Assembly: GCA_025774865.1 (NCBI GenBank)
Contig: JALGZO010000377.1
Span: 1-17,591 of the forward strand
Length of the DNA stretch: 17,591 bases
From: a bacterium
GTDB taxonomy: Bacteria > ARS69
Reading direction: 5' to 3'
Within the stretch, counting starts at the first letter, position 1. The number at the start of each line of letters is the position of its first letter. Positions 8,280 to 14,697 of the stretch are shown piece by piece. Under the pieces are notes generated by a model. The model did no database searches and was not told where the DNA came from. It saw only the letters and a list, made by a program, of their open reading frames with translations. The translations under genes and the position numbers were made by a program.

Positions 8280-8322
8280 CGCAGCGGCGATTCGTGCCGA
8301 GCCCCCGCAGATCGGAGTGAAT

Positions 8323-10410
8323 ATGGCGGTCCAGGACCCGGAAATCGCGGAGATCGGACTGACTCGGGACGACCTGCTCGCCTTCTACCGGAACATGGTT
8401 CTCTCGCGTCGCCTCGACGACGAGGAGATCACACTCAAGCGCAAGAACCTCATCTTCTTTCAGATCTCCGGAGCCGGTCACGAAGCCGCCCTCACCGCGG
8501 TGGGGCACGAGATGCGGCCCAGTCACGACTGGTTCTATCCGTACTACCGGGACCGTGCCCTGTGCCTGGCGCTGGGAATGACGCCCACCGAGATGCTGAT
8601 GAGCGCCGTCGGCGCGGTCGCCGACCCGAACTCGCACGCCCGCCAGATGCCCAGCCACTGGGGCCACAAAGAGCTCAACATCGTCTCGCAGTCCAGCCCG
8701 ACCGGCACGCAGCTCCTGCAGGCGGTCGGGTGCGCGGAGGCGGGATCGCTCTATCGCCGGATCCGAGAGATCCCGGACCGGACCTCTCGATTCCGCGACG
8801 ACGAAGTCGTCTACGTTTCCCTCGGCGACGGTACGTCCAGCCAGGGCGAGTTCTGGGAAGCGGTGTTGTTCCACCTCGAGGACAACGGGTACGCGATCTC
8901 GGTGCCGGTCGAGCAGCAGACACCGGGCGGCAGCGTGTCCGACCTGCTGCGGACCTTTCCGGGGCTCAAGATCGTGGTGTGTGACGGCACCGATCCGATC
9001 GACAGCCTCCAGGCCACGCGCCAAGCCCTCGCGCACTGTCGCACCGGCCAGGGTCCGGCGCTCCTCCACAGTCGGGTCACTCGCCCCTATTCGCATTCGC
9101 TGTCGGATGATCACCGCACCTACCGGACCCCGGAGGAGCTGGCGGAAGAGGAAGCGCGAGATTGCAACAAGACGTTCCCACGCTTCCTCGTCGAGCAGGA
9201 GTACGCGACGGAAGGCGAGCTCGAGGAGATACGGGCCAGCGTCGATCGCGAGGTGAAGGAAGCTTCCGAGGCCGCGCAGGCGGCACCCAAGCCGCCCGCC
9301 ACCCAGGCGGAGGCGGAGTCGTTCGTCTATTCCACCAGCGTGGATCCGACCGGCCCCGACTTCGATCGGCCGCCGACCGAAGAGGGCGACCCGGACTCAG
9401 TCGTGGGGATGATCAACACTTGTCTCCGCGAGGAGATGGCTCGTGAGCCGAGGATCGTGGTGTTCGGCGAGGACGTCGCCGACGCCACCCGCGAAGACGC
9501 GCTCTCGGAGGTTCCGGGCAAGGGCGGCGTGTTCAAAGTGACGCACAAGCTGCAGCGCGAGTTCGGCCACGATCGCGTGTTCAACTCGCCGCTCGCGGAG
9601 GCGAACATCGTCGGGCGTGCGATCGGGATGGCGACGCGAGGACTGAAGCCCGTCGTGGAAGTCCAGTTCTTCGACTACATCTGGCCGGCCATGATGCAGA
9701 TCCGGAACGAGCTGACGATGATGCGCTGGCGGAGCCGCGGTGATTTCGCCTGTCCGTTCGTCATTCGCGCGCCGATCGGGGGCTACCTGCAAGGCGGCGC
9801 GGTCTACCATTCGCAATCGGGCGAGAGCATCTTCGCGCACTGCCCGGGAATCCGCATCGTCATGCCGTCGAACGCCCTCGACGCCAACGGGCTCCTGCGC
9901 ACGGCCATCCGGTGCGACGACCCGGTGCTCTTCCTCGAACACAAGCATCTCTACCGGCAACCGTACGCGAAAGGGCCCTACCCCGGTCCGGATCACATGA
10001 TTCCCTTCGGGAAGGCTCGCCTCCACCGACGCGGCTCGGATCTGACCATCGTCACGTACGGCGCGCTCGTCCGCCGGAGCGAAATGGCGGCGAAGCAACT
10101 CGCCGAGGCCGGTGTCGACGTGGAGATTCTCGACCTTCGCTCCGTTTCGCCGTGGGATTTCGAGGCGGTCGCGGAATCCGTGAAGCGCACGAATCGTTGC
10201 CTCGTCGTCCACGAAGACCACGTGTCGTTCGGGTTCGGGGCGGAGGTCGCGGCTCGCGTCGCGGACGAGCTCTTCCCGTGGCTCGACGCGCCCGTGCAGC
10301 GAGTCGCGGGCCTGGACACGCCCGTCGCGTACTCGCCCGTTGTCGAGAACATCACTCTTCCCCAGGTCGCGGACGTAGTCGCCGGCGCCAGGAAGCTCGC
10401 AGCGTACTAG
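8323..10410 (+). CDS. Fused alpha/beta thiamine-diphosphate 2-oxoacid dehydrogenase E1 component
   Basis: Predicted decarboxylating E1 of a pyruvate or branched-chain 2-oxoacid dehydrogenase-type complex, with both E1 subunits in one 695-residue chain. The alpha part (about 1-315) contains the ThDP motif start GDG at 168-170 and [10 protein letters not shown] at 186-195. A low-complexity linker rich in A, P and E follows (about 315-335). The beta part (about 355-695) has [24 protein letters not shown] and the C-terminal transketolase-like domain ([31 protein letters not shown]). Odd: only 17 residues separate GDG from the conserved N, against the usual 25-30. This looks like an in-frame loss of about 10 residues after WEA. 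ATG 8323 is preferred over GTG 8317 because GGAG (8314-8317) lies five bases before it. No E2 or E3 gene is in the window. Confidence 0.93.
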
Positions 10411-10465
10411 TGTTCCGTCTGGATGGTCATGATCAGTTCCGAGATCTCGCAGCCGCCTCGTGCGC

Positions 10466-10587
10466 CCGAGCTTCGCGAGGTCGGGGGGCACCCTCGCCCG
10501 CCGTTGCTGCTCGGCTCGCGGAACATCGAAGCGAGCCTGCGCTGCGCTGACGCGTTCGAGAATGCCCCCCGACCTCGCAAAGCTCGG
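10466..10587 (+). repeat. Palindromic dispersed element, copy A (122 bp)
   Basis: Bounded by 25-bp terminal inverted repeats (10466-10490 and 10563-10587) that pair at 24 of 25 positions; the left arm begins CCGAGCTTCGCGAGG and the right arm ends CCTCGCAAAGCTCGG. The interior holds two blocks shared exactly with copy B, 10491-10519 (29 bp) and 10535-10560 (26 bp). They flank a central piece that differs between copies. An inner inverted repeat GGCTCGC/GCGAGCC surrounds that central piece in this copy. No transposase and no clear target-site duplication are seen. It could be a non-autonomous mobile element (MITE- or REPIN-like) or a structured RNA; I do not recognise the family. Confidence 0.8.
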
Positions 10588-10727
10588 CTCCTCCGGATGG
10601 CGACCTGAACTCGCTCACGCCGGCCGGCAACGGCGCTCCGGAGGCCGTGGAACCGTGGCGGCACCACGGCGGCGAAGAAGTGACGCTCGTCCACGGGGAC
10701 ACCGAAACCTGGTTCCCGGCCCGAAGA

Positions 10728-10859
10728 AGCCCGGAGCGGCGCGAGGCCGGGGGACCCCCTCGAACGCGTCAGCGCAGCGCAGGCGAGCTACAATCCTCTT
10801 TGCGAGCCGAGCAGCAACGGCGGGCGAGGGGGTACCCCGGCCTCGCGCCGCTCCGGGCT
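10728..10859 (-). repeat. Palindromic dispersed element, copy B (132 bp, inverted relative to copy A)
   Basis: Bounded by 35-bp terminal inverted repeats (10728-10762 and 10825-10859) pairing at 34 of 35 positions. Its reverse complement aligns with copy A over its whole length: the conserved blocks are identical (the 26-bp block is at 10759-10784), the arms are similar, and the central piece differs. Arm differences from copy A are matched by complementary differences in the opposite arm. It ends 63 bp before the TPR-protein ATG, so if transcribed it would lie in that gene's leader. Confidence 0.8.
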
Positions 10860-10922
10860 AGCCTGCGGAAAAGGAAGCAGGACTTCCGCGACGACTTGCT
10901 AGCGGCCCACCGGACAGCCCGT

Positions 10923-12767
10923 ATGCGCGCACTCTTCGTCCCCGGAGCCGCCTGGCTCGCCGTCGCGATCTGGACGGCGCCGCTCCACGCCGGCGGCCCC
11001 CTCGATCCCGCCTCCCTCGAGGACGCGCGCCGCGGGCTCGAGCATCTCTACCACGCGCGCCCCATTCAGGCGGCGGCCGCCTTCGAGCAGATCCGCGCCC
11101 GTCTCCCCGAGAGCCCCGCAGCCGACTTCCTGCACGGTGCGATCGAGTGGCATCGCGTCACGACCGGCCCGCAGGGCATGACGGCGGGGGGGGATCCCGA
11201 GAGGGCCTTCTTCGCGAGGATGAACGCCGCGATCGAGCTCGGAGAGAAGGCGATCGAGAAGGACCCGGGAGACCTGTCGGCCCGGTTCTTCCTCGGTGGC
11301 GCGTACGGCTACGAGGCACGCTACCTGGCCCTCCAGGAAAACTGGTGGACCGCGTACCGCACGGGGAAGAAGGGAGTAGGTCACCTCGAGAAGGTCGTCG
11401 AGGCCGACCCGACGTTCGGTGACGCATACCTCGGACTGGGGATCTATCACTACTACGCGGACGTCCTCCCCAAGGTGCTGAAGATCTTCGGAGCGCTCGT
11501 GGGTCTCCGGGGTGATCGCGAGAAGGGTCTCGAGGAGATCCGGCGCGCCCGGCGCGACGGGGCACTCGTCGAGGAGGAGTGCCGGTTCTTTCTCGCCGAG
11601 ATCGAGTCGACCTTCGAGCAGAACCACTGGAGAGCGCTCGCCTACTCGCGCAGCCTCCGCGACGAGTACCCGGAGAACGAACTGTTCACATGGATCAACG
11701 CCCGGATCCTCGACGAGTTGCACCTCACGGATCTCTCGATCGCGGAATGGACCGCGCTTCGGGGCCAGGCGAAGGGGCGACGCCTGACGGGTTTCATCGA
11801 GTACCGGCTCGCGAGATCGCTTCTCTTCGCCGGCGACTTCGAAGGCGCCGCCGCGAGGCTCGACGAGCTCCTGAAGCTCGGACGCCTCGGCAGCCGGAGG
11901 ATCACGATGTGGGGGCGGCTCCGCTACGGAGTCGCGCTCGACTTTCTCGGACGGCACGAGGAGGCGCTGAGACAGTACGAGATCGCCAAGGAGCTCGATG
12001 CTTCGGACCTCGCGAGGGAACGGGCGGCGGCGCGAATCCACGCGGGCCGTCGCGACCCGGCGGTGGTGTCGCTGGAAGAGCTCGCGGAGACCGCGCGGAT
12101 TCTGAAGGAGACCGGCCGTCGCACGGAGACCGAGCTCCGGCGCGTCGAACACCTCGTGGTCGACCCGCCCCGCGGACGATCGAAGCGGGTGCGACTGGAC
12201 TCCTTCCGGATCCTCGAGGATCTCGTCGAGGCCCGCCTGCGGGACGGACGCCCCGCGGATTGCGTCGCGGCGGTCGCCCGCGCTCTCGAGCTGTCGCCGG
12301 GGCCACTCGCCGAATCACGCGCGCGACTGCTGGCGATCCGGGCCCGGGCGCACCAACGCATGGGCCGCACCGAGAAAGCGATCGCGGACTTGAGCCGGGC
12401 CCACGAACGTGCGTCGGGGGACGACCGGCGACGAATCGGGCGGGATCGCGATCTCGTCGAGCGCCTCGCGGACATGGTGCGCCCCACTCCCACAGCCGCG
12501 GCCGCCTTCACGTTCCGCGCGAGAGACCGAGGCGAACTCCTCTTGGAAGTGGAGTTTCCGGATCGGAGGGTACCCATGGAGCTCGCCGATGGGGTCTGGA
12601 CGGTGACGACCGGTGGGGCGGGCCGCGACCCCCTTCGGTACCGGTTCGTCGCGGACGGCGAATTCCGGCGACTGGACCCGCACGCGCCGCGCGTGAAGCT
12701 CATCGACGACGAGGCCTGGAGCTTCGTCCCTCAACCGAAGCAGACGAACTCCTCGCCCTCCCGGTAG
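10923..12767 (+). CDS. Secreted TPR protein with C-terminal CBM48/AMPK-beta-like domain
   Basis: A 614-residue exported protein. Residues 1-23 form a Sec signal peptide with probable cleavage after LHA (A23). Residues about 30-460 contain degenerate and clear TPR units (GLEHLYHARPIQAAAAFEQI, FGDAYLGLGIYHYYAD, YGVALDFLGRHEEALRQYEI, IRARAHQRMGRTEKAIADLS near 490). The last ~85 residues resemble the immunoglobulin-like glycogen-binding module seen in isoamylase/AMPK-beta proteins: PMELADGVWTVTT, then LRYRFVADGEFRRLDPHAPR. The aromatic sugar-binding residues of true CBM48 are not clearly present. ATG 10923 is chosen because of the signal peptide; the frame is open further upstream through repeat B, and no strong Shine-Dalgarno is visible. 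Its end overlaps the convergent glycosyltransferase gene by 37 bp. Function is unknown, probably periplasmic scaffolding. Confidence 0.85.
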   Translation: MRALFVPGAAWLAVAIWTAPLHAGGPLDPASLEDARRGLEHLYHARPIQAAAAFEQIRARLPESPAADFLHGAIEWHRVTTGPQGMTAGGDPERAFFARMNAAIELGEKAIEKDPGDLSARFFLGGAYGYEARYLALQENWWTAYRTGKKGVGHLEKVVEADPTFGDAYLGLGIYHYYADVLPKVLKIFGALVGLRGDREKGLEEIRRARRDGALVEEECRFFLAEIESTFEQNHWRALAYSRSLRDEYPENELFTWINARILDELHLTDLSIAEWTALRGQAKGRRLTGFIEYRLARSLLFAGDFEGAAARLDELLKLGRLGSRRITMWGRLRYGVALDFLGRHEEALRQYEIAKELDASDLARERAAARIHAGRRDPAVVSLEELAETARILKETGRRTETELRRVEHLVVDPPRGRSKRVRLDSFRILEDLVEARLRDGRPADCVAAVARALELSPGPLAESRARLLAIRARAHQRMGRTEKAIADLSRAHERASGDDRRRIGRDRDLVERLADMVRPTPTAAAAFTFRARDRGELLLEVEFPDRRVPMELADGVWTVTTGGAGRDPLRYRFVADGEFRRLDPHAPRVKLIDDEAWSFVPQPKQTNSSPSR

Positions 12768-13729
12768 CCCCAGCCGGCCAGAGTCTCTCGGATTTCCGCA
12801 CGAGCCCCCTTCACGCCCACCGACACCACGAGGAAACATCCGGGCTTCTCGCGGAGCGTCTCGGAGGTTCGAACCTCCACCCCGATCATCCTTCGCCCGA
12901 TCTTCGTCGGTGCGATGTCGACGAGATGGCGCAGCGCCACGCCGCGCCCACGCAGTGCTTTCGCCGTGCGCTTTCCGTCGCGACCCGCCCCCCACACGAT
13001 CACCTCGCGGCCCGCGAGACCCACGGCGCCGACGAGATGGTCTGCCTTGCACTCCAGGAACGCCCGAGCCGTGTAACGCGGGTCGGTGCGCGTGAGACGG
13101 TCGGAGTGGTCGCGGATCCGGACGAGCGTGCGCGGGACCTTCGCGAACGTCCAACCGGCCCGCCAAGCGCGCAACCACAGGTCGTAGTCCTCGGGCTGGT
13201 CGAGATCGCGGTAGCCGCCGAGCGCCCGTAGCGACGACGTCCGAACGGTAACCGACGGGTGCGCCAGCGGCGACTCGACAAAGAGATCCCGCACGATCTC
13301 GTCGTGCGTGACGACCGAGTTCATCCAGTCCTCGTACGCCCGCAGGTTGGGCGACACGTCGCCGAAGAACTGCACCCGACACGACACGACGTCTACCTCC
13401 GGCCGCGCGTTCAGGAGTTCCACCTGCCGGGCGAGTCGCTCTTCGTCCATGACGTCGTCGGCGTCGAGCCTCGCGACGAAGGGAGCCTCGACCCGCGAGA
13501 GTCCGTCGTTGAGGGTCGCGACGATTCCGCGCGGGGGACACCGGAGGACGACGAAGCGCGGATCGTCGCGGGCGGCCGCCGCCGCGATCGCGGGGGAGTC
13601 GTCCTGGGAGCCGTCGTCGAGCACGAGGCAGCGGAAATCCGGGAAGGACTGGCGGCAAATGCTGCGGAGGGTCTCGGACAGGGTGGTGGCGGCGTCGCGA
13701 ACGGGCAGCAGGACGTCGACCGCGCTCAA
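12731..13729 (-). CDS. GT2-family glycosyltransferase with C-terminal nucleotide-binding-like domain
   Basis: Predicted GT-A fold glycosyltransferase, 332 residues. The N-terminal domain (1 to about 215) has the GT2 start VDVLLPVRDAATTLSETL, VLDDGSQDD at 36-43, the metal-binding DAD at 89-91 (ARLDADDVMDEERL) and QPEDYDLW at 178-185, the usual acceptor-side acidic region. Residues about 240-332 form a second domain beginning REVIVWGAGRDGKRTA with a GxGxxG turn (G247, G249, G252), like a Rossmann-type fold. This is not part of the core GT2 fold. The TTG start overlaps the stop of the PLP-enzyme gene as TTGA, so the genes are translationally coupled. Sugar donor and acceptor cannot be predicted; no membrane segment is seen. 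Confidence 0.92.
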   Translation of the reverse strand: MSAVDVLLPVRDAATTLSETLRSICRQSFPDFRCLVLDDGSQDDSPAIAAAAARDDPRFVVLRCPPRGIVATLNDGLSRVEAPFVARLDADDVMDEERLARQVELLNARPEVDVVSCRVQFFGDVSPNLRAYEDWMNSVVTHDEIVRDLFVESPLAHPSVTVRTSSLRALGGYRDLDQPEDYDLWLRAWRAGWTFAKVPRTLVRIRDHSDRLTRTDPRYTARAFLECKADHLVGAVGLAGREVIVWGAGRDGKRTAKALRGRGVALRHLVDIAPTKIGRRMIGVEVRTSETLREKPGCFLVVSVGVKGARAEIRETLAGWGYREGEEFVCFG

Positions 13730-14697
13730 TCGGACTCCCAGAGAGGCGTGGAGAGATACCGCTCACCGAAATCGCTGAAGATCGTGACGATGATCCCGCG
13801 ACCGGCCTCGCGCCCGGCCCGGAGAACTCCCTCCAGGTAACCGCCCGACGACTGGCCGACGAACAGCCCCCGCAACGCCATTGCCCGCGCGTGTTCGCGC
13901 GCCTCCTCGCTGGAAACGTCGGTCCATTCGTCGACGACTGATTCGTCGAGAATCTCGGGAACGATGTCGCCGGGGTGGCCGAGCGGTTTCAGGCCCTCGA
14001 TGCCCGGGAAGACTTCCGGGCGAACCGAGCAGACCCGGATCCCCCGGTCGTGCTCCTTGAGACGGCGCCCCACGCCCGTGATCGTCCCCCCCGTACCCAC
14101 GCCGGCGACGAAGTGCGTGACGCTTCCCGCCGTCTGCTCGAGGATCTCTTCCGCCGTGGTGTCGTAGTGCGCGCGCCAGTTCCCGTCGTTCGCGTATTGA
14201 TCGCAGAAGAAGTAGCGACCGGGATACGCTTCGGCGAGACGATGCGCCTCGCGGAGCGCTTCGTCGTAGCCTTCGATGGGATCGGTGAACGTGAGCTTCG
14301 CGCCGTGGGCGAGAATGCGCTTCTTCCTCTCGAGACTCGCATTCCCCGGTACGACGAGCTCGACGTCGAACCCGAGCACCCCGCCGATCATCGCGTACGC
14401 GATCCCGGCGTTCCCGGACGACGAGTCGAGCACGGTCTTCCCTTCGCGGAGCCGTCCGTCGAGGACCGCTTCGCTCAACATTCGGAGCACCGGGCGATCC
14501 TTGATGGAGCCGCCGGGGTTGTAGTACTCGATCTTCGCGAACACCTCGACGTCGGGCAGCTCGTCGCGGAACACGTCGAGCCGAACGAGCGGCGTGTTTC
14601 CGATGAGGCGGAGTGGCGGATACCGGTCGACGAGCTCCTGGATCTCCGTCGGCGACGACAAGTGGACTACACGTCCGCCGCTACTGGGCGGCTCCAC
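13726..14697 (-). CDS. PLP-dependent cysteine synthase/cystathionine beta-synthase family enzyme
   Basis: Fold-type II PLP enzyme of 323 residues, about the length of O-acetylserine sulfhydrylases. IGNTPLVRLD occurs at 32-41, the Schiff-base lysine is K66 in NPGGSIKDRP, the substrate loop is SSSGNAG at 92-98, the phosphate-binding loop is GTGGT at 201-205, and GQSSGG at 281-286 supplies the residue near the pyridine nitrogen. It probably performs beta-replacement on an activated serine or homoserine to make cysteine, cystathionine or a related amino acid. The exact substrate is unknown. GTG 14697 overlaps the aldo/keto reductase stop by 31 bp; a downstream TTG at 14661 is an alternative start. 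It is coupled to the glycosyltransferase by a 4-base overlap. Confidence 0.93.
   Translation of the reverse strand: MEPPSSGGRVVHLSSPTEIQELVDRYPPLRLIGNTPLVRLDVFRDELPDVEVFAKIEYYNPGGSIKDRPVLRMLSEAVLDGRLREGKTVLDSSSGNAGIAYAMIGGVLGFDVELVVPGNASLERKKRILAHGAKLTFTDPIEGYDEALREAHRLAEAYPGRYFFCDQYANDGNWRAHYDTTAEEILEQTAGSVTHFVAGVGTGGTITGVGRRLKEHDRGIRVCSVRPEVFPGIEGLKPLGHPGDIVPEILDESVVDEWTDVSSEEAREHARAMALRGLFVGQSSGGYLEGVLRAGREAGRGIIVTIFSDFGERYLSTPLWESD

Follow-up and report, generated by a model that had tools for sequence, protein, structure and literature searches.

A CTAG-ended unit of two head-to-head palindromes forms a dispersed, MITE-like repeat family in one bacterial genome

The window analyzed here is the 17,591-nt stretch at positions 1-17,591 of contig JALGZO010000377.1 (assembly GCA_025774865.1), from a bacterium of the ARS69 lineage. 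Within it, a gene for an E1 dehydrogenase and a gene for a TPR protein lie in tandem on the same strand, separated by an intergenic gap (10411-10922) of which nearly all is occupied by a single non-coding element that we call F1 (Table 1). The TAG stop codon of the upstream gene (10408-10410) falls within the left CTAG of the element. The likely ATG start of the downstream gene, picked by eye, sits 20 bp past the other end. The alpha and beta parts of the E1 dehydrogenase are fused into a single gene of 697 aa.

The original prediction placed two palindromes in this gap, and a repeat search of the window found both again. Palindrome A has 36-nt arms (10466-10501/10552-10587) that are 86% identical, and palindrome B has 40-nt arms (10728-10767/10820-10859) at 93%. 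A and B are related in inverted orientation over 55 nt at 87% and over 61 nt at 80%. Folded as single-stranded DNA, each had a z score of -8.2 against dinucleotide shuffles, with 0 of 200 shuffles as stable. An F1 hairpin is built from arms of at least 31 nt around a core of ~60 nt. The shared 26- and 29-bp blocks already picked out in the prediction are the two conserved blocks of this core, its halves on either side of a variable tip. The pair had thus been seen, but the larger unit around it, with CTAG ends and outer terminal inverted repeats (TIRs) of ~22 bp each, degenerate in the window copy, had been missed. An ORF in the spacer between the palindromes was not supported.

Table 1. Coordinates of the F1 element and its neighboring genes in the window
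Feature	Position	Strand	Basis or remark
Upstream gene, fused E1 dehydrogenase (alpha+beta)	8317..10410	+	Pfam E1_dh, Transket_pyr, Transketolase_C
Whole F1 element, CTAG to CTAG, non-coding	10407..10902 (496 bp)	.	Comparison with ~26 own-genome copies and their ends
Left TIR including CTAG	10407..10428	+	3/22 off consensus CTAGTGTTCCGTCTCGAAAGTC
Palindrome A, long hairpin	10466..10587	+	Repeat search, folding, covariation
A core block 5', CTCGCCCGCCGTTGCTGCTCGGCTCG	10493..10518	+	0 differences from consensus
A core block 3', CCTGCGCTGCGCTGACGCGTTCGAG	10536..10560	+	0 differences from consensus
Spacer between palindromes A and B	10588..10729	.	~23% pairwise difference among copies
Palindrome B, homologous to A, opposite orientation	10730..10857	-	Repeat search, folding
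B core block 3'	10759..10783	-	0 differences from consensus
B core block 5'	10803..10828	-	0 differences from consensus
Right TIR including CTAG, heavily eroded	10881..10902	-	7/22 off consensus CTAGTGTTCCGTCTCGAAAGTC
Downstream TPR protein gene	10923..12767	+	Pfam TPR families on longer ORF 10647-12767

The host genome (G000) is one fragmented, strain-mixed MAG of 4.7 Mb in 785 contigs, 92.65% complete and with 8.3% contamination. Palindrome A had 60 BLAST matches in it at E<=10, with E<=4e-11 at the 26 strongest places, and a covariance model recovered the BLAST set and one further diverged place. Full or deleted copies of F1 lie on ~26 contigs, usually as a head-to-head pair; the dispersed, MITE-like repeat that had been predicted was therefore borne out, and the two palindromes in the window are far from being the only copies. 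Because six contigs (C381, C729, C183, C515, C780, and C660) show the identical head-to-head arrangement, with ~300 nt from core to core except in C660 (228), the pair itself is the repeating unit, and not, as first proposed, two independent copies that share one gap. The copies are multiple, dispersed, and non-coding, and they have common ends, with eroded TIRs of the CTAGTGTTCCGTCTCGAAAGTC type on both sides, the consensus end being CTAG followed by ~19 bp of TIR; the TIR pattern GTGTKCCGTCTCGAAAGTC found 25 matches in the genome at <=3 mismatches versus 0 for the reversed pattern. We give almost no credence to a local inverted duplication or an assembly artefact, which would have in its favor nothing but the pair itself and the fragmentation and contamination of the assembly, and which is ruled out by the many copies in different gene contexts. 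On C713 (L186), at ~343-374, a minimal palindrome, CTAGTGTCCCGTCTCGCGACGGGACACTAG, consists of two TIRs back to back and adjoins the right end of an F1 element.

A second family, F2, was reached from the F1 model via C313 and has members on C313, C160, C697, C72, C28, C477, C779, C216, C509, C549, C566, and C374. Its core, CTCGCTCCGC..GCTCCTCGYC.AACATCCAAG..CTGCGGTGCGCCA.GCGG.TCGAG, resembles that of F1, and the F2 model also matches F1 copies, so the two families are related. In F2 hairpins, stems that are long and near-perfect and vary in sequence from copy to copy enclose a core of ~70 nt (C549, C697, C216, C72, C28, C779, and others; L184, L217-L227). Mean arm identity between copies was 46%, self-pairing was 81% ungapped, and on the alignment 88.7% of the pairs were standard. 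C549 carries an F2 inverted pair like that of the window (13865-13980 on the plus strand and 14172-14279 on the minus strand). Units of ~27 bp (TTGACACCGCTGCGGGCGTACTGCAG) repeat in tandem, in the manner of a minisatellite, between F2 hairpins on C72 (L219) at ~13560-13830. A third palindrome family, F3, has the same design around another core, CATCAAGGGCCCGGGTTCCTC..GTGTGGCATGTTGGAGGGCCCAGCGG, with copies at L242:1117-1227 (C154), at L240:3295-3411 (C130), and near positions 1703 and 1824 of L010 (C704), where a 122-bp unit is duplicated in tandem (97.5%). A 470-kb sample of the host genome held only 8 interrupted inverted repeats scoring >=17, 7 of which belonged to F1, F2, or F3, and 400 kb of genome G003 held none at that score.

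We looked for these families beyond the host. F1 was not found in four other genomes from the phylum (different genera of the same family), in 55 further genomes, or in plasmid, phage, and viral-contig collections; the viral contigs gave two F2-pattern matches, neither with the F2 hairpin. A 20-nt core searched against contigs of 84,980 species matched 22 stretches, nearly all as single matches, and the F2 model found no match at 10 loci (8 of these 22 stretches and the 2 viral ones). We read the scattered core matches in other species as chance. The one outside match to the F2 model, G020:C61:58111-58230 (L289:1501-1620) in a distant genome, is to a GTAGGGGCGG..CCGCCCCTAC palindrome at E 4.7e-5 per genome, a value from a short calibration of the covariance model; it is a candidate likeness only and could instead represent a distinct palindrome type that is common, GTAGGGGC..GCCCCTAC. 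G002, a relative from the same family, carries a further family of CTAG-ended palindromes (CTAGCCTGCATTTCTCACC..; L335:13743-13822, L347:10893-10972, L330:18582-18636, and L331:14635-14704), which is possibly another CTAG-inserting MITE.

Comparison of the F1 copies revealed a marked difference between the cores and the rest of the element. In the cores, 18 of 1122 positions over 22 units differed from the consensus (1.6%), against 144 of 704 TIR positions (20%, from ungapped best matches and including a few absent ends), so that divergence is ~12-fold higher in the TIRs than in the core. Among 12 aligned copies, pairwise differences, which carry alignment noise in the TIR regions, were 0.8-4.6% in the core blocks, 9-23% in the stems, 23% in the spacer, and 11-21% in the tips. 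Exact CTAG, itself palindromic, was counted by hand at 13 of 32 ends and is present at both ends of several copies. Clean cores are kept even in copies with no recognizable TIR on one side, such as the left end of C729, whose cores are perfect, and this argues against a constraint on transposition alone. Gene conversion centered on the hairpin tip was rejected as the source of core conservation, since the loop between the core blocks varies more than the cores. Judged from sequence comparison, the hairpin cores appear to be under sequence-specific constraint, with a presumed function, and are probably recognized by something.

Some F1 copies are short, having lost the middle and kept both ends, and the same deletion junction recurs at different, unrelated loci (C703/C235/C217 and C639/C184). 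The short forms therefore apparently dispersed too; alternatively, the recurrent junctions could reflect repeated deletion at the same microhomology. Other contigs pair up by near-identical host flanks around elements of unlike length: C60/C477, with flanks 99-100% identical, and C122/C780, C501/C639, and C235/C729, with flanks at 96-98.5%. Such pairs are probably strain variants. Since short copies without a core exist, and C477 lacks a hairpin that is present in its near-identical counterpart C60, the core can be dispensed with at some loci. These observations bear on F1 as a purely selfish MITE, with young copies and a core conserved only for transposition of the source element, a reading that we consider unlikely, if far from negligible. 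It would account for the dispersed copies, the TIRs, the deletion derivatives, and the restriction to one lineage, but the TIRs, which a DDE transposase needs most, have eroded far more than the core, the core-less derivatives with common junctions apparently moved without the core, and F2 retains a related core though its stems have lost most of their similarity.

F1 lies mostly between convergent genes. Of 17 resolved loci, 13 were convergent, 3 tandem, and 1 divergent, compared with 41 convergent intervals among 253 in a genome sample (p 7e-8); for F1 and F2 together the count was 18 of 24 (p 3e-10), and the sides of the elements faced gene 3' ends 34 times versus 6 (p 8e-6). For these counts, genes were called by a simple GC-frame method and loci were oriented partly by visual inspection; some of the contigs are allelic and were counted unmerged. 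A TAG stop often falls within the terminal CTAG. CTAG is rare in the host genome (101 in 470 kb) and makes up 33 of 269 called gene ends. An element that seeks CTAG will therefore often insert in a stop codon without destroying it. The convergent enrichment additionally needs selection against insertions that split co-transcribed genes, or a benefit from the hairpin. Repeated TGTTTCACGTGAAACA sites with a parS-like look were seen on C350 (L265) at 8960-9237.

The stems covary strongly. Changes on both sides occurred in 16 of 31 F1 pairs (73 cells versus 24.4 in shuffles; 18 units), every sliding control being far lower, and in 19 of 27 F2 pairs (65 cells versus 20.5). G-U intermediates were almost absent, with 5 one-sided G-U cells in F1 and 3 in F2, and the stem mismatches (14 G-T versus 19 A-C) showed no strand bias. 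Stems can both arise and persist through template switching (PMC8794818). Because double changes are common, one-sided standard pairs are rare, and mismatches have no strand preference, the pattern fits arm-to-arm copying at the DNA level at least as well as selection at the RNA level. A structured RNA, also suggested originally, is a possible alternative. On that reading the hairpin with its conserved apex would be an mRNA 3'-end element (a stabilizer, processing site, or terminator) under RNA-level selection. The compensatory changes, the very stable folds, and the sense orientation at gene 3' ends point that way, but the scarcity of G-U intermediates and the lack of strand bias are not what selection on one RNA strand would leave, and template switching can explain the covariation of the arms without selection. 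Moreover, single hairpins between convergent genes say nothing on orientation, and Rfam gave the hairpins nothing at gathering score, only sub-threshold matches of miRNA type. The window hairpins have no U-tract signature, and an intrinsic terminator of that kind was rejected. Taken as a whole, we regard the structured-RNA reading as decidedly improbable.

By anatomy F1 is MITE-like, and its enzyme is a putative one. The prediction had suggested looking for a RAYT or other transposase gene flanked by the same arms, and no autonomous element with F1 ends was found in the host assembly, an incomplete MAG; such an element may be lost or unassembled. The sole DDE_3 gene of the assembly, on C702, was discarded as a partner because its ends do not match those of F1. 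There was no DDE_Tnp_1 match in the assembly and no Y1_Tnp match, an equivalent search for the latter being positive in 5 of 14 control genomes. A preference of IS630 for TA in CTAG is given in the title of Tenzen and Ohtsubo (1991), as it stands in the reference list of PMC2170065, and the CTAG ends of F1 fit it.

Our preferred reading, which we hold to have about an even chance of being right, is that F1 is a lineage-specific, non-autonomous MITE-like repeat that inserted at CTAG, with constrained cores and arms homogenized at the DNA level, and that was mostly retained between convergent genes. Dispersal would have been by an IS630-like DDE transposase preferring CTAG/TA, which was supplied in trans and has since been lost or is missing from the assembly. 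Each hairpin would stay palindromic, while its sequence drifts, through template switching from one arm to the other. The core would be kept through recognition by a trans-acting factor, which most plausibly reads it within the hairpin at the 3' ends of genes, and the head-to-head layout would give each convergent gene one hairpin in sense orientation.

A bolder idea, which we put forward as a long shot, is that F1, F2, and F3 represent a new class of "core-in-palindrome" elements, in which a ~50-75-nt core, recognized when folded by a dedicated factor, would spread or persist while template switching keeps rewriting the stems or rebuilds them from local sequence. Selection would then act on the stems only through their ability to pair, and on the core only through its sequence. 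An ordinary MITE depends on its ends, and its interior decays. In F1 the internal cores are nearly fixed while decay affects the ends, stems, and spacer, and one genome of a little-studied bacterium holds several families of this design. These families offer many natural replicates in which RNA function and DNA template switching can be tested as sources of the stem covariation, and they point to a putative factor that reads a conserved hairpin-apex sequence at gene 3' ends.

Of the known systems, MITEs of the IS630/Tc1-mariner type share with F1 a non-coding, intergenic character, a length of ~100-500 bp, TIRs, internal deletion derivatives, and ends compatible with the IS630 target preference. 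F1 differs from them in having two long head-to-head internal hairpins, ends less conserved than the internal cores, and no partner transposase found. REP, BIME, and REPIN elements are also palindromes in opposite orientations, mostly downstream of genes or between convergent genes, and the inverted pairs found at the 3' ends of genes are reminiscent of BIMEs (PMC3733652). The REPIN/BIME-like element mobilized by a RAYT (Y1 transposase) that had been proposed is nevertheless largely refuted, save for a RAYT in the unassembled part, and we rate it as very improbable: no Y1 transposase was found, F1 has TIRs and CTAG ends, its hairpins of ~120 nt are far longer than REPs of 20-40 bp, and the GTAG/CGTC tag was not noted in it. 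With respect to build, F1 may also be set beside ERIC/IRU. These and similar intergenic palindromes of ~127 bp are long and imperfect with a conserved center. F1 is likewise a long, imperfect, intergenic palindrome with a conserved center, but here the palindromes are paired in one unit, and the core is kept while the F2 stems are largely unrelated between copies.
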